DNA of 64,000 bases from Knoellia flava TL1 (GTDB lineage: Bacteria; Actinomycetota; Actinomycetes; Actinomycetales; Dermatophilaceae): the NCBI RefSeq assembly GCF_000768675.1, contig NZ_AVPI01000001.1:248001-312000 (forward strand), given 5' to 3'. Made by a program: the position numbers and the translations under genes. The notes beneath the pieces are model-generated. The model ran no database searches, had not been told where the DNA came from, and saw only the letters and a list, made by a program, of their open reading frames with translations. Positions 16,320 through 32,915 of this stretch are shown piece by piece. The number at the start of each line of letters is the position of its first letter. Position 1 is the stretch's first letter.

Positions 16320-17351
16320 TCAGGCCCTGGCCCGCTCGGCGAGGTCGGCCCGCGGGTCGGTGCCCTCGGCCTCGGCGCGCAGCACCTCGACGGCCTCGCG
16401 GGCGCGGTCGGAGAGCTCGGAGGGCACGACGACCTGCACCTTGGCGAGCAGGTCGCCCGTGCCGCTCTTGCCTGCGACCCCGCGGCCCTTGACGCGCAGG
16501 ACGCGCCCGGACGGGGTGCCGGGCGCGATGCGCACCCTGACGCTCGACCCGTCGAGCGTAGGCACGGCGACCGTCGCACCGAGCGCGGCCTCCGCGAAGG
16601 TCACCGGGAGGTCGACCGTGAGGTTGTCGCCGTCGCGCCCGAAGACGGGGTGCTTCTCGACGGCGACGGTGAGGATGAGGTCACCCGCGGCCGCTCCCGG
16701 CTCGCCGGGCTGGCCCTTGCCCCGCAGCCGGATCTTCTGGCCGTCCTTGACCCCGGCCGGGATGCGCGCCGTGATCGTGCGACCCTCTGCGGTGCGCAGC
16801 GTCACCGTCGAACCCTCGACGGCATCGCGGAACGGCAGCGTCGTCGAGGCCTGGACGTCGGCGCCCTTGCGGGGACCCCGAGTGGCGCCGTAGCCGGCAT
16901 ACCCCGGTTGCGGACGGCCGCCGCCCCCGGCGGCTCCCCCGAACATCTGGGCGAGGAGGTCGTTGATGTCCTCCCCACCGCCGCCGGGGTAGCCGCCGTA
17001 GGAGCCACCACCGGTGTCGAAGCGGACGCGCTGCCCGCCACCGCCGAAGTGGCTGAAGATGTCGTCGAAGCCGCCGTTGCCCCCCGGCCCCCCCGCGGTG
17101 AAGCGCGCGCCGCCGCGCGCCATCTGGCGCACCGCGTCGTACTCCTCACGCTGCTTGGGGTCGGACAGCACCGCGTGGGCCTCGCCGATGTCCTTGAACT
17201 TCTGCTCGGCGGCCGTGTCCCCGGGGTTCTTGTCGGGGTGGTGGGTGCGCGCGAGCTTGCGGTAGGCCTTCTTGATCGCACCGGAGTCGGCGTCCTTGGG
17301 GACGCCGAGGATCGCGTAGAAGTCCTTCTCGAACCAGTCCTGGCTCGCCAT
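16320..17351 (-). CDS. dnaJ: DnaJ-type co-chaperone lacking the zinc-finger domain
   Basis: 343 residues. J-domain at 9-75 with the HPD motif (HHPDKN), a long Gly-rich linker (about 85-150), then two C-terminal beta domains. The four CxxCxGxG repeats of classical DnaJ are missing, as in CbpA and in the HspR-linked DnaJ of many actinobacteria. It stimulates DnaK ATPase and delivers substrates. Upstream in-frame sequence to 17618 is antisense-like; ATG 17351 begins the J-domain properly. Confidence 0.93.
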
Positions 17352-17430
17352 CAGCGCCTCCTCTCGGACATCGTATGCCGTTGCGCCACAGGGGCGTTCG
17401 GCGTGCGGACCGGCGTCGTGCCGAGCCGCC

Positions 17431-18089
17431 TCACTCGGGGTCGGCGACCGCGACCCGCGCGGGACGCAGGACCTGGTCGCCGGTGCGGTAGCCGGGCTGG
17501 AGCACCTGGACGACGGTCGTCGTCGTCGCGTCGGTGGGCAGCTCGGCGTTGGAGGCGTCCCAGGCGGCGTGCATGAGCGCCTCGTGGTGCATCGGGTCGA
17601 AGGGCTCGCCGACCGCACCGAAGCGGATCAGCCCGAACTTGCCCAGGCTCGACTCGAGCTTGTCGGCGATCGCCGCGAACGGGCCGTCGGTGAGGTCACC
17701 GTGGTCGCGGGCGAGCTGGATGTCGTCGAGGACCGGCAGCAGCGAGTCGAGGACGTCGCGCACCGCACGCTCCTGGACCGCGGCACGGTCCCGGTCGACG
17801 CGGCGCTTGTAGTTGACGTACTCCGCGTTGAGCCGCTGGAGGTCGTCGAGCCGCTGCGCCGCGAGCGCCGTGTCGGGGTGCTCGCCACCGTCGCCGTCGA
17901 CCGGCTCCTCGTCGTCGGCGGGCACGTCGTCGGCGGGCACGTCGCCCGCGGGGGCGGTGGCCCCGGCCGAAGCCGGAGCCACCTCCTCACCGTCGTTGGC
18001 GGACTCGGTGTTGATCGCGTCGTCGGAGGACTCGTCGTCCACGAGCTCGGCGTCGACGACCTCGTCCTCACCCGGCATACGGGGGTCGG

Positions 18090-18093
<4 letters not shown>
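17431..18093 (-). CDS. grpE: GrpE nucleotide-exchange factor
   Basis: 220 residues. A long acidic disordered N-terminus (1-75) precedes the dimerising helix with [17 protein letters not shown] and the C-terminal beta domain with [11 protein letters not shown] and [21 protein letters not shown]. GrpE releases ADP from DnaK. GTG 18093 overlaps the dnaK stop by 4 bases; ATG at codon 6 is an alternative. A 79-base gap separates it from dnaJ. Confidence 0.96.
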
Positions 18094-19991
<1,898 letters not shown>

Positions 19992-22426: not shown

Positions 22427-22864
22427 ATGGCCACCTCGCGCACCGACCCGCTCACCCTCGAGGTCGTCGACCTCATCGGGTCCGTCGTGGCGCGCTACCA
22501 CGCGGAGTACGACCGGGCCGCCGCGGCACACTCGCTCACCGGGGCACAGGCCCGGCTGCTGGCGCTGCTCGCCGTCGAGCCGCTGCCCATGCGCAGGATC
22601 GCGCGGACCCTGCGGTGCGAGCCCTCCAACGTCACCGGCATCGTCGACCGGCTCGAGGCCCGAGGACTCGTCGAGCGCCGGCCCGATCCCGCCGACCGCC
22701 GGGTCAAGGTCGCCGCGGCCACGACCGAGGGCGCCCGCACAGCGCGGCGGCTCCGCGCGTCGCTCGGGTTCGCCCGAGAGCCACTCGCCGAGCTCTCCCA
22801 CAAGGAGCGGACGACCCTGCGCGACCTCCTGCAGCGGATGGTCGGAGACCCGGACGGCTCCTGA
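22427..22864 (+). CDS. MarR-family transcriptional regulator
   Basis: 145 residues. The winged helix has PMRRIARTLRCEPSNVTGIVDRLEARGLVERRPDPADRR, as separate recognition helix and wing in the MarR pattern, flanked by dimerisation helices. It probably represses itself and the divergent oxidoreductase through the AT-rich gap, released by a phenolic or electrophilic ligand or by oxidation of its single Cys in the recognition region. The short distance from the -10 box to ATG suggests a leaderless mRNA. Confidence 0.9.
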   Translation: MATSRTDPLTLEVVDLIGSVVARYHAEYDRAAAAHSLTGAQARLLALLAVEPLPMRRIARTLRCEPSNVTGIVDRLEARGLVERRPDPADRRVKVAAATTEGARTARRLRASLGFAREPLAELSHKERTTLRDLLQRMVGDPDGS

Positions 22865-22887: not shown

Positions 22888-22893
22888 TACACT
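22888..22893 (+). promoter_or_regulatory. Candidate -10 box for three-gene exported-protein operon
   Basis: TACACT followed by 7 bases and the ATG at 22901; a leaderless start. No clear -35. Confidence 0.4.
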
Positions 22894-22900
22894 CCCTGCC

Positions 22901-23521
22901 ATGGGGGAGAACGCGACGGCTGGACGAGGCGTGCTCGGGCGCGCCCGCGGCTTCGTCAAGGGCAGGCCGGCGAGCCAGAAGGTGGGTGGCGGCGTCGCCG
23001 CGGCGCTGCTCGCGAGCGCGCCGTTCGGCGGGCTCGCCGCGGTGCCCGAGCCCGGGCCCGAGCCGATCGCCAAGGGCAAGGCCGTCATGGTCGGGCCCTA
23101 CGAGGTCGTCGTCGACCAGGTCGTCGAGCTGCCCGACCTCAAGCCGGCGGTCTCCCCCGAGCCGTCGGAGCGGGTCGTCGTCGTCGACATGAAGGTCACC
23201 CTCACGGGTGACCGACCGGAGTATGCCGTCACGCTCACGAAGAACGTCTCCCTCACCGGTGGTGGCGTCGAGGTCGTCGACGGTCCGGACCTCTACTTCG
23301 TCGAGGACGCCACCCGCATGTCGAACATCAACCCGGGCCTCACCTACCGGCTCGCGCTCACCTACACGACCTCGGGTCCGTGGCAGGGCGACTCGGTCAC
23401 GGTGAGCAGCAACCTCGTGGAGTTCCGCGAGGAGGACAAGCAGACCCTCGATCCCGACGCGTGGGTCGCCCGCGACAAGATCCAGTCGCGCGGGACCTTC
23501 CCCCTCGTGAGGCGCTCATGA
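22901..23521 (+). CDS. Exported beta-rich protein, first of a three-gene cassette
   Basis: 206 residues. A basic N-terminus (to about 27) precedes one hydrophobic segment (28-46), which could be an uncleaved anchor. The rest is beta-rich (YEVVVDQVVELPD, RVVVVDMKVTLTG, RLALTYTT), reminiscent of the DUF4352/immunoglobulin-like fold with a ligand- or partner-binding face. Function unknown. Its stop overlaps the next start (ATGA), and the next two genes have the same layout. Confidence 0.7.
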   Translation: MGENATAGRGVLGRARGFVKGRPASQKVGGGVAAALLASAPFGGLAAVPEPGPEPIAKGKAVMVGPYEVVVDQVVELPDLKPAVSPEPSERVVVVDMKVTLTGDRPEYAVTLTKNVSLTGGGVEVVDGPDLYFVEDATRMSNINPGLTYRLALTYTTSGPWQGDSVTVSSNLVEFREEDKQTLDPDAWVARDKIQSRGTFPLVRRS

Positions 23522-24117
23522 GGCGCAGCATCGCCCTGGCCGCCTTCGTCCTCGCCGCCATGGGGATCGGGCGCCTCATCACCGACCACGTCCCGACGGG
23601 CGACGTCGCCGACAAGCCCTTCACGCACGCCGGCGTCGTGGGCGAGAAGGTCGCCCTCGACTACGCCGACGTCACCGTCACGGGGGTCCACGTCACCCCG
23701 ACGATCATGGGCAACCCCGCCTCGGCCGCGGGGGGCCGCTTCCTCGTCGTCGACACCGAGCTCGTCGCCACCCGCGAGCCGGTCTTCATGGCCGGCTTCT
23801 TCCTCGTCGACGCCAGCGACCACCGTTGGATCTCCTCGACCCGCGGCAGTGAGTGCGTGACCAACGCCAAGCTCTCGACCGGCGTGCGGCACTATGCGAG
23901 CTTCTGCTTCGACGTGCCCAAGCGCGCGCTGTCCGGTGCGCGTCTCGTCGCGACCCGGGGCATGTGGACCTCGCACGAGTCCGAGTTCCGTCGCGACGAC
24001 CTCGCCGACGTGGACCTCGGCATCGCGGCCGCCGAGGCCGACACCCTGTGGGCCGGCACCGACCCGGTCAACGTCAAGGAGAGCGGCCCCGTCCCGCCCG
24101 CGGAGGCCCGCCGATGA
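23518..24117 (+). CDS. Exported beta-rich protein, second of the cassette
   Basis: 199 residues from ATG 23518 (4-base overlap with the previous stop). One N-terminal hydrophobic segment (4-22) is followed by a beta-sandwich-like domain (VALDYADVTVTGVHVTP, GGRFLVVDTELVAT). Two cysteines (SECVTN and SFCFDV) probably pair outside the cell. 'GGRFLVVDTEL' is close to the conserved strand of DUF4352 proteins. No enzyme motif. Role unknown; tight coupling to both neighbours suggests a complex. Confidence 0.7.
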   Translation: MRRSIALAAFVLAAMGIGRLITDHVPTGDVADKPFTHAGVVGEKVALDYADVTVTGVHVTPTIMGNPASAAGGRFLVVDTELVATREPVFMAGFFLVDASDHRWISSTRGSECVTNAKLSTGVRHYASFCFDVPKRALSGARLVATRGMWTSHESEFRRDDLADVDLGIAAAEADTLWAGTDPVNVKESGPVPPAEARR

Positions 24118-24776
24118 GCACCACCGCGACGCCCCCGACCCGCGCCACCCGCCCCCGCCGCCCGAGCCGCTGGTGGATGGCGGCCCTCCCCGTCGCCGTG
24201 GCCGCGATGCTCGTCGCGAACGGCTACCGCGTGCCCGTCTTCTGGTACCAGTCCGGTCAGCACCACGAGCTCGCCTCGGGCGACCGAGGCGAGTGGGTGC
24301 GGGTCACCGAGGAGTACACCGACGCGATCGGCGACACCACGCGGACCTACGAGGTGCGGCTCGCGGGGCTGGGAGGTGAGAGCACGGCATACGAGGACGA
24401 CGGCGGTGACGAGTTCACGCTCGCCGACGGGATGGTCGCGCGCACGGTCGACCTCGACTTCCGCGCCGCGCCGGACCAGGCGCTCAAGAACTGCGCGGTC
24501 ACCCTCGTCGACGACGAGGGTCGGCAGTACCGCGTCGGCCACATCTCCGACGGCATCGGGCCGTCGGTGACCAACTGCGTCCCCGAGGAGACACCCGGGC
24601 CCAGCGTCGTCATCTTCGAGACCGAGCGCCGCGGCGCCCTGCCACCGAAGGAGAAGCCGCGACCGACCGAGTGGTCGTCGTCGCCGACGATCGCCGTGCC
24701 GAAGGACGCGCGGTTCGTCGAGGTGCGGATCTCGTTCGAGAACCCCGACTACGTCACGCTCCGGCTTCCGCGCTGA
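24114..24776 (+). CDS. Exported protein, third of the cassette
   Basis: 220 residues from ATG 24114 (ATGA overlap). A basic N-terminus and a single hydrophobic helix (about 22-38) are followed by a beta-rich domain with two cysteines (KNCAVTL and TNCVPEE) and an 'RFVEVRISFENPDYVTLRLPR' type terminal strand. Like its two partners it looks anchored by an N-terminal helix. Its 3' end overlaps the convergent membrane protein gene by 23 bases. Confidence 0.7.
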   Translation: MSTTATPPTRATRPRRPSRWWMAALPVAVAAMLVANGYRVPVFWYQSGQHHELASGDRGEWVRVTEEYTDAIGDTTRTYEVRLAGLGGESTAYEDDGGDEFTLADGMVARTVDLDFRAAPDQALKNCAVTLVDDEGRQYRVGHISDGIGPSVTNCVPEETPGPSVVIFETERRGALPPKEKPRPTEWSSSPTIAVPKDARFVEVRISFENPDYVTLRLPR

Positions 24777-26046
24777 CCTCTCGCGGCGCGGTCGGCTGCG
24801 GCTCGGCGTCCGCCGGGTGCAGCTTCGGGCCGAGCAGCCAGTCGATGGCGGCGGCGAGCAGGGCTGCGGCGAGCACCATCGTGATCGCGAGGCCGACGGC
24901 CTTCTCCATCGGTGAGAACGCCAGCCACGTGTCGGTCTGGAGCGGCCCGATGGCGAGCCGGAGCAGCTGCCCGACGATCCACGGGATGCGGATGACGAGA
25001 AGGAAGGCCAGGCAGAAGGTGAGCATCGGCAGCAGGCCGGCGGTCGCCATCATCCGCAGCCCGTTCCAGAACGCCGACCACCGCTCGCGCACGTCTGCCA
25101 CGAGCCCGCCACCGAAGCGGCGCACCGGCGCCGGGATGCGCTCCCACCGCGGGTCCGGCTGCCGCGCCGGCTCCTCCGGCCCGGAGAGCTTGTGCCCGAG
25201 GACGACGGCGCCGACCGTGATCCACGCGAGCGGGACGATGACGACGGCGTCTATCGCACCCACGAGCCCGAAGAGCCACGTCGTCGCGGTGTCGACGGGG
25301 TTGGCCAGCGGGCCGAGGGACGTGATGACCTGGTCGTACTCGTCGAGGACGAGTCGTGACGCCCGGCGCTCCTGCACCCAGGCGACACCGTCCTCGCGGA
25401 ACTCGGCGACCTTCTGCGCGACCTGCGAGGTGTAGTAGACCTCGACGAGTGCACCGGCGAACGCGAGCCAGAGGAAGCGGGTCACGCTCTCGAACTTGCC
25501 GAGCGCGTAGCGCACCACCCAAGCGATGACGACGATGGCGAGCACGACCTGCCAGTCGTAGATCGCGAGACGCGAGGCGAAGTCGATGTCGGGCGGCTCC
25601 CCCAGCGTGAACTGGTTGAACTCGTCGTAGGCCGCCTCGTTGGTGAACCGGTAGAGGTCCTCCTTGAGCAGCCCGTAGGACACGTAGACCGCGAGGAAGG
25701 GCACGAGCACACTGACCGCGACGTCGACGAGCCGCAGCTCGCGCTTCTCGGTCGGCGCCTGCCGGGCCTCGCGGCGCGACAGCTCGGCGACGTTGGGCAG
25801 CGCGCCGCGGGTCATCCAGAGCATGGCGATCATCGCGAGGAGGAAGCCGAGAGGCGCGAGCACGAGGATGAGCTGGGCGACGAAGGCGTTGTGGTCGCTC
25901 ACCTCGACGGCGACCCAGAGCGCGCCGCTGCGCAGCGCCAGCCCGAGGCACGCGATGACGACGAAGGGCGCCCAGTAGACGCGGAGCACCCGCCAGGCGG
26001 ACACGAGCACCGCGGGGATGTCGCGCACCCTCATCTCGTCGTTCAT
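24754..26046 (-). CDS. Large polytopic membrane protein of unknown function
   Basis: 430 residues from ATG 26046. About seven to eight membrane segments (for example 30-48, 60-85, 115-140, 180-205, 260-290, 335-365, 375-400) separated by charged cytoplasmic stretches, one being an amphipathic region around QKVAEFREDGVAWVQERRASRL. No transporter or enzyme motif recognised. It converges on the three-gene exported cassette, and lies downstream of a hydrolase gene in the same direction. Confidence 0.72.
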   Translation of the reverse strand: MNDEMRVRDIPAVLVSAWRVLRVYWAPFVVIACLGLALRSGALWVAVEVSDHNAFVAQLILVLAPLGFLLAMIAMLWMTRGALPNVAELSRREARQAPTEKRELRLVDVAVSVLVPFLAVYVSYGLLKEDLYRFTNEAAYDEFNQFTLGEPPDIDFASRLAIYDWQVVLAIVVIAWVVRYALGKFESVTRFLWLAFAGALVEVYYTSQVAQKVAEFREDGVAWVQERRASRLVLDEYDQVITSLGPLANPVDTATTWLFGLVGAIDAVVIVPLAWITVGAVVLGHKLSGPEEPARQPDPRWERIPAPVRRFGGGLVADVRERWSAFWNGLRMMATAGLLPMLTFCLAFLLVIRIPWIVGQLLRLAIGPLQTDTWLAFSPMEKAVGLAITMVLAAALLAAAIDWLLGPKLHPADAEPQPTAPREVSAEAGA

Positions 26047-26876: not shown

Positions 26877-26905
26877 TTGACGGAGCCTTCGGAGCCGTGT
26901 AGACC
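26877..26905 (+). promoter_or_regulatory. Promoter of the peptide ABC operon
   Basis: TTGACG (26877-26882), a 17-base spacer and TAGACC (26900-26905), ending about 70 bases before the first ATG. This is the most canonical sigma-70-type promoter in the window. Confidence 0.65.
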
Positions 26906-26975
26906 TCATCGACAACCGCGCCATCGCGTGGGGCGCGGGGGCGATGCTCCGCGAAGGCCGAAGGATCGAGGACCG

Positions 26976-28808
26976 ATGAAGTTCCGAACGAACCCTGGCG
27001 GCCGGGGGCTGCGAACCGTGCTCTCCGGACTGCTTGTCATGCTGTTGGCCTGTGCCGCAGCACTTTTCGCGGGCAGCGGCGCGCACGCCGAGACCAAGGA
27101 CGAGAAGACGCTGACGATCGCCGTGAGCCAGGAGGTCGACTCGCTGAGCCCGTTCCTCGCCGTGCGACGGATCACGACGGCGCTCGGCCGCCTCTCCTAC
27201 GACTTCCTCACGAACTACGACCCCAAGACGGGCAAGACGATCCCGGCCCTCGCCGAGTCGTGGACGACGTCCGAGGACGGGCTCACGTGGACCTACAAGA
27301 TCCGTGACACGAAATGGACCGACGGCCAGCCGATCACGGCCGAGGACGCCCGCTGGACCTTCGACACGATGATGAAGGACGAGGCCGCCGCGACCGCCAA
27401 CGGCAACTTCGTCGAGAACTTCGAGAGCGTCAGCGCACCCGACCCGCGCACCCTCGAGGTCAAGCTCAAGGCGCCGCAGGCGACGATGCTCGCCCTCGAC
27501 GTGCCGATCCTGCCCAAGCACAAGTGGGAGGGCGTCGGTGACTACTCGAAGTTCAACAACGACCAAGAGTTCCCGATCGTGGGCAGCGGTCCTTGGGTCA
27601 TCAGCGCCTACGAGGTGAACCAGTCGATCACCCTCACGCCCAACAAGGACTTCTGGCGGGGTGCGCCCAAGTTCGACAAGCTCGTCTTCCGCTACATCGA
27701 CGACAGCGACGCCCAGGTGGAGGCGCTCAAGGCCGGCGAGGTCGACTTCGTCTCCGGCCTCACGCCGGCCCAGGCCAAGGCGCTCGAGTCCGCCGACAAC
27801 ATCACCGTCAACAAGGCCAAGGGCAAGCGCTTCCAGGCCATCACCCTCAACCCGGGCGCGAAGCTCCAGGACGGCACGGCCTTCGGCGACGGCAACAAGG
27901 CGCTCCAGGACCCGGTCGTGCGCGAGGCGCTGGTGCGCACCATCGACCGCGAGGCGATCTACAAGACGGCCTACGGCGGCTTCGGCGAGGCCAACGGCGG
28001 CTACATCCCGTCGCGCTACAAGGACTACCACTGGGAGCCCGAGGGCGACGCCGTCATCGGCTTCGACACCGCGAAGGCCGGCGAGCTCCTCGAGGGCGCC
28101 GGCTGGGTCAAGGGCTCGGACGGGATCCGCGCCAAGGGCGGCACGAAGCTCTCGTTCCGCTTCAACGTCCACGCCGACAACCCGCAGTACGTCCAGGCCG
28201 CCGAGATGATGCGCGAGTGGGCCAAGGAGGCCGGCATCGACCTCAAGGTCGAGCCCGTGTCCGAGGTGGGCGCCCTGCTCGACGCGGGCACCTACGACAT
28301 CCTCACCACCGGCTGGAGCGTCAACCCCGACCCCGACTACATCCTCGGCATCAACCGGTGCTCGGGCCTGCCCGCGAAGGTCGGCGGCCCCTACCTGTCC
28401 GACGCGTACTACTGCAACCCGGAGTACGACAAGCTGTATGCCGCGCAGCTCGCCGAGCTCGACCAGCCCAAGCGGGCCGAGATCGTCAAGCAGATGCAGG
28501 AGCAGCTCTACAAGGACAACGTCTTCGTCGTCTGGGGCTACGCCGACCAGCTCGAGGCCTTCCGCTCCGACACCATCGCGTCGATGCAGCCGCAGCCGGA
28601 CCCGGGCGGCAACTACGACAGCCAGGACGGCTACTGGAGCTGGTGGTCGGCGACGCCCGTCGGCGAGGAGGACGAGGCCGCAGGTGACTCCGGCGGCAGC
28701 AGCTCGGGCCTCATGCTCGGTGGCGGCGCCGTGGCCCTCGCGGCCCTTGCGGCCGGCGTCGTCTTCCTGCGTCGTCGGGGCGCCACCGCCGCCGACGACC
28801 GTGAGTGA
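26976..28808 (+). CDS. Peptide/nickel-type ABC substrate-binding protein with C-terminal membrane anchor
   Basis: 610 residues. A long signal peptide ends GAHA (residue 38); a degenerate LLAC lies within it. The SBP_bac_5 domain fills about 45-560: SQEVDSLSPFLAVRR, a PALAESWTTSEDGLTWTYKIR repeat typical of DppA/OppA, and YADQLEAFRSD near the end. Unusually, a Gly/Ser linker leads to a C-terminal hydrophobic helix (AVALAALAAGVVF) and an RRR stop-transfer tail. The receptor is therefore tethered by its C-terminus, not by lipid. First gene of a five-gene importer operon. Confidence 0.9.
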   Translation: MKFRTNPGGRGLRTVLSGLLVMLLACAAALFAGSGAHAETKDEKTLTIAVSQEVDSLSPFLAVRRITTALGRLSYDFLTNYDPKTGKTIPALAESWTTSEDGLTWTYKIRDTKWTDGQPITAEDARWTFDTMMKDEAAATANGNFVENFESVSAPDPRTLEVKLKAPQATMLALDVPILPKHKWEGVGDYSKFNNDQEFPIVGSGPWVISAYEVNQSITLTPNKDFWRGAPKFDKLVFRYIDDSDAQVEALKAGEVDFVSGLTPAQAKALESADNITVNKAKGKRFQAITLNPGAKLQDGTAFGDGNKALQDPVVREALVRTIDREAIYKTAYGGFGEANGGYIPSRYKDYHWEPEGDAVIGFDTAKAGELLEGAGWVKGSDGIRAKGGTKLSFRFNVHADNPQYVQAAEMMREWAKEAGIDLKVEPVSEVGALLDAGTYDILTTGWSVNPDPDYILGINRCSGLPAKVGGPYLSDAYYCNPEYDKLYAAQLAELDQPKRAEIVKQMQEQLYKDNVFVVWGYADQLEAFRSDTIASMQPQPDPGGNYDSQDGYWSWWSATPVGEEDEAAGDSGGSSSGLMLGGGAVALAALAAGVVFLRRRGATAADDRE

Positions 28809-28811
28809 CGG

Positions 28812-29906
28812 ATGACCGAGCTCCCACCCAGTGATGCGGTCCCGCACCTCGACGAGGTGCGGGACCGCGGGGACGCCCCCCGTGGCACGGGCGGTGCTGC
28901 CGTCGCCCTCGCCGACCGGCGCGGGCGTGACGACGACCGCCTGCGCCGCAACGCGGCATACCTCGGGAAGCGGCTGCTCGGCGCGGCCGTCTCCCTCGTC
29001 GCCGTGATCTTCACGAGCTTCTTCCTCTTCCGGATCATCCCCGGCGACCCGGTGCGGGTGATGACCCACGGCCGCCCTGTGACGATCGAGCAGAAGGAGG
29101 CGCTCGCGCGCGAGTTCGGGCTCGACAAGCCGATGCTCGAGCAGTTCGTCAGCTATCTCCTCGGAGTGCTGCGCTTCGACTTCGGCGAGTCCTTCCAGTA
29201 CAACCGGCCGGTCCTGTCGATGGTCGGCGAGCGCCTGGGCCCGACGCTGCTGCTCGTCGGCGCCAGCCTTGCCGTCTCGGCCGCCCTCGGGCTGTGGCTC
29301 GGCGTCCAGGGCGCGTGGAAGCACGGCAGCACGGCCGACCGCGTCAACACCGGGGTGGCCTTGACGCTCTGGTCGGTGCCGAGCTTCTGGCTGGGCCTCA
29401 TCCTCATCGTCGTCTTCGCCTCGGGGCTGGGGTGGTTCCCGACCTCGGGCATGAAGACGCCGGGGGTGACCGGGTTCGACATGGTGCTCGACGTGGCGCA
29501 CCACATGGTGCTGCCGCTCGTCACGCTCGTCGCCGTCGTCTATGCGCAGTACCTCCTCGTCATGCGGTCCTCGCTGCTCGACGAGATGGGCTCGGACTAC
29601 CTCACGACCGCCCGCGCGAAGGGCCTGCGCGACACCGAGGTCAAGCGCCAGCACGCCCTTCCCAACGCGCTGCTGCCGACGACGACGCTCGTCTTCATCA
29701 ACATCGGCTTCGTGCTCTTCGGGGCCGTGCTCGTCGAGACGGTCTTCTCGTGGCCCGGGCTCGGCAAGCTCTTCTACGAGGGGCTGAGCGTGCCTGACCT
29801 GCCGCTCGTGCAGGGGCTGTTCGTCATCTTCTCGGCGGCGGTCATCCTCATGAACCTCGTCTCCGACCTCATCTACCCGCTCATCGACCCCCGGGTGCGT
29901 CCATGA
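28812..29906 (+). CDS. Peptide ABC transporter permease, DppB type
   Basis: 364 residues; six membrane segments after a hydrophilic 50-residue N-terminus. RIIPGDPVRVM, GLDKPMLEQFVSYL and DFGESFQYNRPV are hallmarks of DppB/OppB, and the EAA-loop region reads TTARAKGLRDTEVKRQHALPNALLP in parts. It forms the channel with the next permease. ATG 28812 starts 3 bases after the SBP stop; GTG 28857 is an alternative. The first codons contain a strong hairpin (28836-28868). Confidence 0.93.
   Translation: MTELPPSDAVPHLDEVRDRGDAPRGTGGAAVALADRRGRDDDRLRRNAAYLGKRLLGAAVSLVAVIFTSFFLFRIIPGDPVRVMTHGRPVTIEQKEALAREFGLDKPMLEQFVSYLLGVLRFDFGESFQYNRPVLSMVGERLGPTLLLVGASLAVSAALGLWLGVQGAWKHGSTADRVNTGVALTLWSVPSFWLGLILIVVFASGLGWFPTSGMKTPGVTGFDMVLDVAHHMVLPLVTLVAVVYAQYLLVMRSSLLDEMGSDYLTTARAKGLRDTEVKRQHALPNALLPTTTLVFINIGFVLFGAVLVETVFSWPGLGKLFYEGLSVPDLPLVQGLFVIFSAAVILMNLVSDLIYPLIDPRVRP
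28836..28868 (+). promoter_or_regulatory. Strong stem-loop at the start of the permease gene
   Basis: Perfect inverted repeat, arms 28836-28851 and 28853-28868, so roughly a 15-bp stem with a 3-base loop. Placed between the receptor and channel coding sequences, it could stabilise the receptor mRNA or attenuate downstream expression. Confidence 0.6.
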
Positions 29907-30817
29907 CCTCCGCCGCCTCGACCGCGAACGCGTCCCCCCGACAGCTCACGTGGGCCCGCCGGCGCCGTGCGGTGGGCACGTTCTGGAGCTCCTACCGCCA
30001 GAACCGCGCCGGCCTCTTCGGCCTCGCCGTGCTCGCCGTCTTCGTCCTCTCGGCGCTGCTCGTGCCGTGGATCGTCGGCGAGGAGGCGCTGAGCGTCACC
30101 CGCCCACCCGGCGAGCCGCTGCAGCCGCCGAGCGGCGAGTTCTGGCTCGGCACCGACCGCTCAGGCCGCTCGGTGCTCGACCTCATCCTCTGGGGCTCGC
30201 GGGTCTCACTCACGGTCGGCTTCGCCGCGACCTTCATCTCGATCGCCCTCGGCTCGCTCATCGGCATCCTCGCCGGGCACTTCTCGGGCTGGATGTCGGG
30301 GCTGCTGCTGCGCATCACCGACTGGTTCCTCGTCATGCCGACGCTCGTGCTCGCCGTGGCCCTCGCCGCCGTCCTCGGCCGCAGCCTGTCGACGATCGTC
30401 ATCGCCATCGGTGTGACCTCGTGGCCGACGACGGCGCGGCTCGTGCGCGCCCAGACCCTCGCGGTCGAGGCCCGGCCCTACATCGAGCGGGCCCGCGCCC
30501 TCGGCGGTGGGCACTGGCACGTCATGACCCGACACGTGCTGCCCAACGTCATGCCGATCGTCCTCGCCCAGACGACGCTCATGGTGGCCGGCGCCATCCT
30601 CACCGAGTCGACGGTCGCCTTCCTCGGACTGGGCGACCCGACGACGCCGTCGTGGGGCAGCACCATCCAGGCCGCCCGCGACACGGGCGCGGTGAGCTCG
30701 GGCATGTGGTGGTACATCCTCCCGCCCGGCATCGCGATCGCCCTCGTCGCGCTCGCCTTCACGCTCTGCGGACGGGCCATCGAGGCCGTCCTCAACCCCC
30801 GACTGAGGTCCCGCTGA
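29903..30817 (+). CDS. Peptide ABC transporter permease, DppC type
   Basis: 304 residues, six membrane segments. FWLGTDRSGRSVLDLILWGSRVSL is the typical DppC/OppC pattern, and EAA-loop residues RARALGGGHWHVMTRHVLPN are present in parts. ATG 29903 overlaps the dppB-like stop by 4 bases. Pairs with the preceding permease. Confidence 0.93.
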   Translation: MTSAASTANASPRQLTWARRRRAVGTFWSSYRQNRAGLFGLAVLAVFVLSALLVPWIVGEEALSVTRPPGEPLQPPSGEFWLGTDRSGRSVLDLILWGSRVSLTVGFAATFISIALGSLIGILAGHFSGWMSGLLLRITDWFLVMPTLVLAVALAAVLGRSLSTIVIAIGVTSWPTTARLVRAQTLAVEARPYIERARALGGGHWHVMTRHVLPNVMPIVLAQTTLMVAGAILTESTVAFLGLGDPTTPSWGSTIQAARDTGAVSSGMWWYILPPGIAIALVALAFTLCGRAIEAVLNPRLRSR

Positions 30818-31860
30818 TGACGACGCCCCTGCTCGAGCTCGACGGCCTCACGGTCGGCTACCGCACCCGCGACGGGGTCGTCCCCGCCGTGCGCGGCGTC
30901 GACCTCACCCTGGCCCGCGGCGAGAAGCTCGGCGTCGCCGGCGAGTCCGGGTCGGGCAAGTCGACGCTCGCCCTCGCGCTGCTGCGCCTGCTCCCCCCGT
31001 CGGCGACGGTCACCGGCCGGGTGCTGCTCGACGGCGAGGACGTCCTCGAGATGGGCTGGGGCCGCCTGCGCGCCGTGCGCTGGGCCGGCGCGTCGATCAT
31101 CTTCCAGGGCGCGATGCACTCGCTCAACCCGGTCCAGACCATCGGCGACCAGATCACCGAGCCGATCCTGCGCCACCAGAAGGTCGGTCGCGACGCCGCC
31201 GACGCCCGGGTGCGCGAGCTCCTCGGCCAGGTGGGGATGCTGCCCGACCGCGCCCGCTCCTACCCCCACGAGCTCTCCGGCGGCCAGCGCCAGCGCGTCA
31301 TGATCGCGATGGCCCTCGCGTGCGAGCCCGACCTCGTCATCGCCGACGAGCCGACGACCGCCCTCGATGTCATGGTGCAGGCGCAGATCCTCACGCTCAT
31401 CGACGACCTCGTCGCGAGCCGCGGCATCAGCCTGCTCATGATCAGCCACGACCTCTCGGTCCTCTCCGACGTCTGCGACCGCCTCGCGGTGATGTATGCC
31501 GGCCGCGTCGTCGAGGTCGGACCCGCCGGTGAGGTCTTCCGGCAGGCCCGACACCCCTACGGTGCTGCGCTCGCGTCGGCCTTCCCGACCGTGGGCGACC
31601 CCGCGTCGCGGATGCGGCCGCAGGGGCTGCCTGGCGACCCGCCCGACCCCCAGGCCCTGCCGACGGGGTGCGCCTTCCACCCGCGCTGCCCGGTCCGACT
31701 CGACCACTGCGACGACGTCGACCCGGTGCTGTGGCCGGCGGGGTTGGATGGCGCGGGGCACGAGGCCGCCTGCGTGCGGGTCCTGCCCGACGACGGCCGC
31801 TCGCTCGCAGCCACAGTTGCCCACGCGGCCCCGACCAGTGCCGTGGAGGCCACCCGATGA
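30817..31860 (+). CDS. Peptide ABC transporter ATPase, DppD type
   Basis: 347 residues. Walker A GESGSGKST (about 43-51), signature LSGGQRQR, Walker B LVIADEPTTALD, H-loop SHDLSVL. The C-terminal oligopeptide/dipeptide extension has cysteines in CAFHPRCPVRLDHC and a later AACVR, the pattern that binds an iron-sulfur cluster in some family members. ATG 30817 shares one base with the previous stop (TGATG). Confidence 0.94.
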   Translation: MTTPLLELDGLTVGYRTRDGVVPAVRGVDLTLARGEKLGVAGESGSGKSTLALALLRLLPPSATVTGRVLLDGEDVLEMGWGRLRAVRWAGASIIFQGAMHSLNPVQTIGDQITEPILRHQKVGRDAADARVRELLGQVGMLPDRARSYPHELSGGQRQRVMIAMALACEPDLVIADEPTTALDVMVQAQILTLIDDLVASRGISLLMISHDLSVLSDVCDRLAVMYAGRVVEVGPAGEVFRQARHPYGAALASAFPTVGDPASRMRPQGLPGDPPDPQALPTGCAFHPRCPVRLDHCDDVDPVLWPAGLDGAGHEAACVRVLPDDGRSLAATVAHAAPTSAVEATR

Positions 31861-32915
31861 GCGACGCCCTGACCGACCGCACCCCCGCGTCCGCCCACGA
31901 CGCGGGCACACCGCTGCTCAGCGCGCGCGACCTGCACGTCACCTTCCCGGGCCGCCGCGGGGGCGGGTCGGCGCGCGCCGTCGACGGTGTCAACCTCGAC
32001 GTCGCACCGGGCGAGATCGTCGCGCTCGTCGGCGAGTCCGGTTGCGGCAAGACGACCCTCGCCCGAACCCTGCTCGGGCTCCAGAAGCCGACGTCGGGCA
32101 CGGTGTCCTACCGCGGGACGCCCTTGAGCTACGGCTCCAAGGCGCTCAAGGCCTACCGCCGCGAGGCCCAGCTCGTCCTCCAGGACCCGAGTGGGTCGCT
32201 CAACCCGCGGCACACCGTCTACGAGGCCGTCGCCGAGGGGCTGCGGATCCACGGCGAGGTCGCCGACGAGCGCGAGCGCGTCGCGGACGCCCTGTCGCGG
32301 GCAGGGATGCGCCCGCCCGAGCGCTTCTTCCTGCGCTACCCCCACGAGCTCTCCGGCGGGCAGCGCCAGCGCGTCGTCATCGCCGGTGCGCTCGTCCTCG
32401 ACCCGACGCTCCTCGTCGCGGACGAGCCGGTCGCCTCGCTCGACGCGTCGGTGCGCGGCGAGATCCTCGCCCTCATGCTCCGGCTGCGCGAGGAGCTCGA
32501 CCTCGCCGCGCTCGTCGTCACGCACGACCTCGGGCTGGCGTGGAACATCGCCGACCGCGTCGCCGTCATGTATCTCGGCCGCATCATCGAGACCGGCCCG
32601 GTCGAGAAGATTCTCACCGCGCCCGAGCACCCCTACACGCAGGCCCTGCTCTCGGTGCTGCCCGAGGGCGGGGAACCCGTCGTGCTCAGCGGCGAGCCGC
32701 CGGACCCGTCGCGGGTGCCGGGTGGGTGCCGGTTCCACGTGCGTTGCCAGAGCCTGGCCTCCGGTGCCGCCGAGGCGGCCGGCGTGGCCGACCTGTGCCG
32801 CACGAAGGACCTGCCGGTGCTCGACGGGCGTGGCACGCAGGCCGCCTGCCACCTCGCGCAGGCCCGGCTGCTCGCGACGTCAGGCGAGGGCGGGCACGTC
32901 CAGCACCAGCGTTGA
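31857..32915 (+). CDS. Peptide ABC transporter ATPase, DppF type
   Basis: 352 residues. Walker A GESGCGKTT, signature LSGGQRQR, Walker B LLVADEPVASLD, H-loop THDLGLAWN, then the oligopeptide C-terminal extension with GCRFHVRCQ and a later DLCRTK. ATG 31857 overlaps the dppD-like stop (ATGA). Its 3' end overlaps the convergent LD-carboxypeptidase gene by 36 bases; it is the last gene of the operon. Confidence 0.94.
   Translation: MSDALTDRTPASAHDAGTPLLSARDLHVTFPGRRGGGSARAVDGVNLDVAPGEIVALVGESGCGKTTLARTLLGLQKPTSGTVSYRGTPLSYGSKALKAYRREAQLVLQDPSGSLNPRHTVYEAVAEGLRIHGEVADERERVADALSRAGMRPPERFFLRYPHELSGGQRQRVVIAGALVLDPTLLVADEPVASLDASVRGEILALMLRLREELDLAALVVTHDLGLAWNIADRVAVMYLGRIIETGPVEKILTAPEHPYTQALLSVLPEGGEPVVLSGEPPDPSRVPGGCRFHVRCQSLASGAAEAAGVADLCRTKDLPVLDGRGTQAACHLAQARLLATSGEGGHVQHQR

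Follow-up and report, generated by a model that had tools for sequence, protein, structure and literature searches.

The locus analysed here, on a contig of Knoellia flava TL1, raises the question of whether a short run of genes for exported proteins and the membrane protein gene that faces it encode the parts of one system. The window, by which is meant the whole 64,000-nucleotide stretch of DNA that was analysed, had been given a preliminary description in which three overlapping genes joined by ATGA (here A, B and C) were reported to face a polytopic membrane protein (here M). Both observations stand: there are three plus-strand ORFs with two exact 4-base junctions, and M is a real gene on the opposite strand whose 3' end overlaps that of C (Table 1). 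M had been listed as a neighbour and is in fact a fourth member of the unit.

Gene organization of the locus

Table 1. Coordinates of the four-gene unit and of its junctions and promoter-like box in the window
Feature	Position	Strand	Description
TACACT, -10-like box	22888-22893	+	Ends 7 bases 5' of the A start codon; leaderless-type
Gene A	22901-23521	+	206 aa; ORF with membrane segment and weakly DUF4352-like ectodomain
A/B junction	23518-23521	+	ATGA overlap, exactly 4 bases
Gene B	23518-24117	+	199 aa; ORF with membrane segment and ectodomain remotely paralogous to A
B/C junction	24114-24117	+	ATGA overlap, exactly 4 bases
Gene C	24114-24776	+	220 aa; ORF with membrane segment and predicted MPT63-like beta-sandwich
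C/M overlap of 3' ends	24754-24776	C plus, M minus	23 bases, tail to tail
Gene M	24754-26046	-	430 aa; polytopic membrane protein, about 8 helices

Start codons in related loci were picked by rule and some are wrong, for example those of C in loci L129 and L091. For M of the window, relatives suggest that the true start may be the next ATG, at 26034. With a picker that favours the 4-base overlap, and with eight junctions of each kind unscorable, such overlaps recurred across 74 complete loci at 52 A-B and 61 B-C junctions. The same picker gave 4-base overlaps at 16 of 16 B-C junctions and 15 of 16 A-B junctions in the full loci of a family-level set. The 3' ends of C and M overlapped in 57 of 72 convergent loci.

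The leaderless-type promoter proposed for A finds support in its relatives. Besides the TACACT box of the window, a TANNNT box was located 4-11 bases 5' of the A start at 38 of 73 loci, compared with 2.6 expected from shuffled upstream sequence, and at the same distance from the M start in 24 of 76 (2.3 expected), the window M start not being one of these; both counts rest on approximate, chosen start codons.

A MarR-family regulator, assigned by Pfam, is encoded at 22427-22864 of the window, 36 bases upstream of A. It was considered as a member of the unit and rejected, being found beside it at just 3 of 18 loci, those of the window and two close relatives. Further away in the window, translations indicate a minus-strand group of dnaK with probable grpE and dnaJ (16320-19991) and, downstream of the unit, a peptide-type ABC uptake cluster (26877-32915). 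Across the related loci, a cluster that includes ABC ATPases was present near the unit in 13 of 77.

Linkage of A, B and C with M

A scan of named bacterial genomes seeded with M retrieved 77 loci from many actinomycete families, the genera including Knoellia, Janibacter, Nocardioides, Antribacter, Cellulomonas, Jiangella, Kineosporia, Aeromicrobium, Phytohabitans, Micromonospora, Actinomyces, Propioniciclava and Corynebacterium, among others. A, B and C adjoined M or were located no more than 2.4 kb away in 74 of these loci, with 72 convergent and two co-directional. In the latter (L134 and L143) all four genes run in one direction in the order A-B-C-M. In L114 and L156, A, B and C were judged, from the number and length of the contigs, to lie 8-10 kb beyond M on the same contig, behind inserted genes. 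L128 counts against an obligate complex: no C was detected in the genome at E<=0.01, with a contig that stops about 7 kb past M. Among the other neighbour clusters, none was found at more than 13 of the 77 loci.

Similar linkage was seen at closer range. Single-sequence searches of a family sample of 99 genomes detected A and C in 15 genomes each, B in 16 and M in 18, and the four sets of genomes were almost identical. With family-level profiles, a complete A-B-C set convergent with M was present in 16 of 18 loci, comprising 17 fetched regions and the window; a weak M match in G027 (E 3.2e-4) was left out of this set. An order sample of 149 genomes had M in 20, and the 14 regions fetched from it contained 16 M genes, with A and B at all 16 and C at 14 (profile E<=0.01). 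Order-level M matches in G423, G509, G520 and G522 and a place in G396 lay outside the fetched sets.

The unit is sparse at greater distance. In a phylum sample of 198 genomes, the window's own genome included, M was detected in four and C in three; most sampled genomes are without the unit, which counts against the complex. The odd one of the four, G139, has A and B and a C too diverged for the profile. We take its genus to be Mycobacterium, from the context of arginine genes in the translations. In this Mycobacterium-like genus, 26 of the 118 genomes sampled carried M, at 34 places in total, and A and B accompanied it at 32 of the 33 places examined, the exception (L206) having a partial M without A or B inside the fetched stretch. 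An ORF with a 4-base overlap followed B at all 29 B genes checked, again with a picker that favours the overlap; the ORFs of L191 and L198 look damaged or masked, and this check did not include four of the modules. An alignment of these 29 ORFs, the diverged C, matched window C at 97.5 % (P 6.4e-12).

Co-occurrence had been fixed beforehand as one of two tests on which the idea of a single system would stand or fall, the other being likeness of fold. The genes do occur together, at 74 of 77 loci in the M-seeded scan, at all 16 loci of the family-level set in which M is full and, for A with B, at 32 of 33 distant places.

Remote relationships and predicted fold of A, B and C

The protein alignments comprised 78 rows for M, 74 for A, 69 for B and 57 for C, the window included, once length had been used to exclude rows and three C rows, near-duplicates or at an edge, had been taken out by hand. 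Profile comparison with hhalign gave 94.9 % for A against B (P 4.3e-8; 74 and 69 rows) and 91.8 % for B against C (P 7.5e-7; 69 and 62 rows). No direct likeness of A to C was detected (2.1 %, 74 against 62 rows; 1.5 % in a smaller set). The larger sets gave the higher values, alignments of 16 rows having scored 55.6 % for A-B and 77.6 % for B-C. The diverged C of the Mycobacterium type reached 88.7 % against B and 18.9 % against A. An iterated A profile also drew in B proteins, so that second A matches are B; the paralogy is quoted from the separate comparison. By these profiles, A and B, and B and C, are remote paralogues. The earlier suggestion of divergent paralogues thus stands for two of the pairs, and the third, A-C, was not seen directly.

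Matches to known families were weak. Window A scored 16.1 bits against DUF4352 (PF11611), under the gathering cut-off of 25.9, and window B and C had no DUF4352 match in Pfam. At E<=0.1, weak DUF4352 matches were obtained for 17 of 74 A proteins (best E 2.7e-4), 12 of 69 B proteins (best E 1.1e-4) and none of 57 C proteins. No Pfam match to MPT63/MPB63 was found for window A, B or C or, at E<=0.1, for any row of the alignments (74 for A, 69 for B and 57 for C), and NCBIfam named none of the four window proteins. Searches of PDB sequences with 16-row alignments gave a best value of only E 0.13. With the larger profiles, A matched 4les at E 0.1, B matched ApaG at E 0.8 and C matched a lipoprotein at E 0.37; a match of the A profile to ammonia monooxygenase subunit B (E 0.031) was judged to be chance.

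Structure prediction was more informative for C. Its AlphaFold2 model was confident (pLDDT 91.0, pTM 0.81), and Foldseek returned three matches under E 0.001, namely YxkC (9a4z, an integrative model), 5bxg and 4les, the last being also the entry matched by the A profile. A structural aligner placed the model on MPT63 (1lmi) with Z 9.6 (126 aligned, rmsd 3.2), followed by YxkC at 8.5, YjhA (3cfu) at 7.6, 4les at 6.6 and 5bxg at 6.4, with all remaining structures at Z 5.3 or lower. YxkC and YjhA are presumably members of DUF4352. The predicted ectodomain of C is therefore an Ig-like beta-sandwich of the MPT63/YxkC/YjhA kind. Sequence profiles suggest that A and B share this DUF4352/MPT63-type fold. 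The second test set beforehand, that wholly different folds would refute the idea, thus did not refute it either, and the main inference of the preliminary description is supported. The beta-rich external domains that had been proposed for all three proteins are thus supported by a model for C and by profiles only for A and B.

Membrane anchoring and cysteines

Each of window A, B and C has one N-terminal hydrophobic stretch, as the preliminary description had stated. Mean numbers of lysine plus arginine per 15 residues were higher before this stretch than after it, at 2.9 versus 1.1 for A (74 rows), 3.0 versus 1.5 for B (69 rows) and 3.4 versus 1.7 for C (57 rows). No lipobox cysteine was found in the first 60 residues of any of 74 A, 69 B or 57 C proteins, as a lipoprotein would have. 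Because positive charge precedes the hydrophobic stretch and the lipobox is absent, all three proteins are likely to be anchored in the membrane with the N-terminus inside. The stretch may instead be a cleavable signal peptide, most of all in A. A conserved GG, usually FGG, directly follows the membrane segment of A. In Kineosporia and Micromonosporaceae, B or C carries long Pro/Gln-rich extensions that are predicted to lie in the cytoplasm.

Paired cysteines had been reported in two of the proteins, and in the window they are present in B (C113 and C130) and C (C127 and C155), with none in A. Conservation is seen for C alone, where the pair is near-invariant (57 and 56 of 57 rows). At least two cysteines after residue 45 occurred in 43 of 69 B proteins, and the two positions used in window B were cysteine in just 10 and 11 of 69 rows.

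The membrane protein M

Hydropathy of M showed seven clear segments and a weaker one at about residues 193-209, and its structural model was good (pLDDT 86.8, pTM 0.83). M probably has about eight membrane helices with both termini inside. P116, F117, E202, W223, P272, W275 and A280 were invariant in 78 M sequences, and R179 was present in 97 % of them. The near-invariant R179 and E202 sit in neighbouring predicted helices, so that conserved charges lie inside helices, and in the model the two residues look to be at equal depth in the membrane.

No family was named for M by Pfam, NCBIfam (window M), PADLOC, PHROGs or PDB sequences. PHROGs offered no home for the unit (lowest E 0.072), and a PDB sequence search with the 78-row M profile returned nothing up to E 10. 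Nine of the 78 M proteins had weak matches to DUF1232, the best at E 2.1e-4. Foldseek gave nothing significant for the M model (best E 0.39). The structural aligner ranked yeast PNS1 (9f63) first, with Z 10.2 over 243 aligned residues and rmsd 6.2, and the next structure at 6.1; this Z is below the aligner's caution level of about 13 and may reflect a common helical arrangement. None of the 78 M proteins matched the choline-transporter (CTL/SLC44) family in sequence at E<=0.1.

The idea that three paralogues sit on three repeats of M was also considered. When four helix-pair segments of M were compared as profiles, the best probability was 1.9 %, which did not exceed that of column-shuffled controls (at most 3.1 %). 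Internal repeats were thus undetected, and the idea therefore gets no support from sequence.

Signs of joint transfer and the case for a proposed complex

In a tree of 54 M sequences, Knoellia, Nocardioides and Antribacter formed a clade (support 100/100) apart from other Intrasporangiaceae, and the same clade was recovered in a tree of 47 joined A, B and C sequences (0.999). The trees disagree over Cellulomonas, which forms one clade for M (100/98) and not for A, B and C. Pairwise identities of the four proteins correlated at 0.83-0.89, values that include shared ancestry and stand beside no control gene. There are thus signs in the sequences that the unit has been transferred jointly between families.

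A, B, C and M are best explained as four subunits of one obligate membrane complex of the envelope, a reading to which we give a probability of about 0.6. It is the simplest account because the set is complete, its order is constant, there are signs of shared transfer and two lineages have switched gene direction. Linkage of this kind can also last through horizontal transfer without physical contact between the products. The two remnant loci (L071 and L084), the weak M match in G027, the partial M of L206 and the disagreement of the trees over Cellulomonas also count against the complex. A clear experimental target is provided by the linkage over deep divergence, the apparent movement as a block and an M that lies outside all family libraries searched, and four hypothetical proteins of many actinobacterial genomes become one testable system.

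Comparison with described systems

MPT63 is a lone secreted protein, whereas C is probably anchored and belongs to a four-gene unit. The predicted C ectodomain superposes on MPT63, YxkC and YjhA, but sequence identity is just 8-16 %. The ectodomains of A and B are weakly like DUF4352 proteins and differ from them in that three paralogues are here tied to a polytopic partner. For most MPT63 and DUF4352 domains we know of no assigned role in bacteria, and the unit gives them a biological setting.

The MmpS and MmpL proteins of actinobacteria offer a parallel in layout. MmpS proteins are single-pass helpers with a beta-domain that stand beside a polytopic envelope protein and help MmpL transporters. 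The likeness is by analogy only, since the unit has three helpers and convergent genes, and no MMPL/RND domain was found by Pfam in window M or its 77 relatives, or by NCBIfam in window M. Nor did Pfam detect an ATPase among A, B, C and M, as an ABC system would have.

As for the CTL/SLC44 fold, PNS1 is the sole structure that stands above the rest for M. That fold has ten helices with three amphipathic ones, whereas about eight are predicted in M, and the match is weak and unaccompanied by likeness in sequence.

The four-gene unit fits no described system that we know or found, a statement about the system and not its mechanism. The preliminary description had called it an undescribed system, and no fitting description was encountered in the libraries and literature listings searched; among the matches listed for DUF4352, MPT63, YxkC and PNS1/SLC44, the excerpts concerned contained no description of the module.

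Possible functions

In the complex that we favour, M would span the membrane about eight times, and A, B and C, each with its N-terminus in the cytoplasm, a single membrane helix and an external Ig-like domain of MPT63 type, would together cap M on its outer face; this topology, the physical assembly and the stoichiometry are what we infer. On its outer side the complex would bind and handle an envelope ligand, such as a lipid, lipoglycan or wall precursor, using a membrane subunit unrelated to MmpL and no ATPase of its own. We offer this role tentatively, as one drawn by analogy. It is ranked above transport by M, phage exclusion and sensing because of the parallel with MmpS-MmpL, and no pointer to any particular ligand was found, which counts against it.

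A surface complex could instead exclude or defend, blocking phage adsorption, DNA entry or other attack, as an accessory gained and lost horizontally. The patchy distribution, the signs of movement as a unit, the second modules that lie nearby in the same genome (L093; L202; L216 and L220) and the remnants (L071 and L084) would all suit such a role. One report on K4 mycobacteriophages describes an MPT63-superfamily lipoprotein, gp44, and a seven-helix membrane protein, gp46, which flank the integrase and for which the authors suggest a possible defence function (PMC5679791). This phage pair keeps the exclusion reading alive, but, as described there, it has a lipoprotein and a single ectodomain protein, and the likeness is an analogy of description only (PMC5679791). 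PADLOC matched none of five proteins (window A, B, C and M, and the diverged M), a result that leaves room for defence; tblastn of window B and C against phages gave no match, and no M relatives were found in viral contigs or plasmids. Pfam assigned ordinary domains to 18 of 20 neighbours from six loci and none to the other two. On balance we consider exclusion unlikely.

Transport by M itself is likewise improbable. On this reading M, with a fold like that of CTL/PNS1 proteins, would act as a channel or carrier, and A, B and C would bind substrate or act as gates; PNS1 is the best structural match by a clear step in Z, and conserved charges lie within predicted helices. However, that match is weak in rmsd and in Foldseek, no PDB sequence matched to E 10, and PNS1 may be no transporter. 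The paper on PNS1 describes ten helices in an unusual fold with threefold pseudosymmetry and argues against transport (PMC13160678).

It is quite unlikely that the unit is an envelope sensor, in which ectodomains would sense the state of the wall or membrane and M would signal to the cytoplasm through its tail and the cytoplasmic N-termini. Pro/Gln-rich extensions, predicted to be cytoplasmic, on B, C or M in Kineosporia and Micromonosporaceae are consistent with it, as is a two-component pair with an ABC transporter upstream of M (kinase cluster at 6 of 77 loci, regulator cluster at 8 of 77). Yet Pfam and NCBIfam show no signalling domain in any of the four proteins, the two-component neighbours occur in few, related loci and the extensions are lineage-specific.

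We give little credence to a bolder form of the complex, a new envelope machine of actinobacteria (corynebacteria among them, and probably mycobacteria too), in which an M of a new family with a bacterial CTL/PNS1 bowl fold would be roofed by three MPT63-fold paralogues, one per pseudo-repeat. If true, it would be a self-contained device that handles or guards an envelope molecule, and a tractable model of the CTL fold.

That four independent envelope genes are together only through joint travel is very unlikely, since, although the trees indicate horizontal transfer, the set stays intact across deep divergence, all four genes share one direction in two lineages and M is rarely alone (74 of 77 loci with the set, and A with B at 32 of 33 and 16 of 16 places).

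Variant loci

Several loci depart from the common layout. In two Cellulomonas loci (L114 and L128) the same set of genes is located downstream of M, and in L114 it separates C from M. The insert in L156 (9290-17233; Ornithinimicrobium) looks, from its translations, like sugar uptake with a galactosidase. Three Corynebacterium loci (L153, L154 and L160) have a 674-base gap between M and C with an extra gene. Both B and M are split across frames in L143 (5921-9146; Acidipropionibacterium timonense), by decay or sequencing error. Remnant modules were seen in L071 (7661-9236), which has A, B and a truncated C but lacks M, and in L084 (7776-9008), which has A and fragments of B and M.

Very long Pro/Gln-rich extensions of low complexity were present on B in L106, L113, L129 and L131, on C in L131, L132, L133 and L139, and on the tail of M in L129 and L158. 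Paired modules lie close together in L093 (4526-11219), L202 (3124-9255), L216 (3819-18542) and L220 (3668-11142). The two modules of a pair point the same way in Antribacter gilvus, G384 and G533 and are mirror images in G494; G384 and G494 have three M matches in all.
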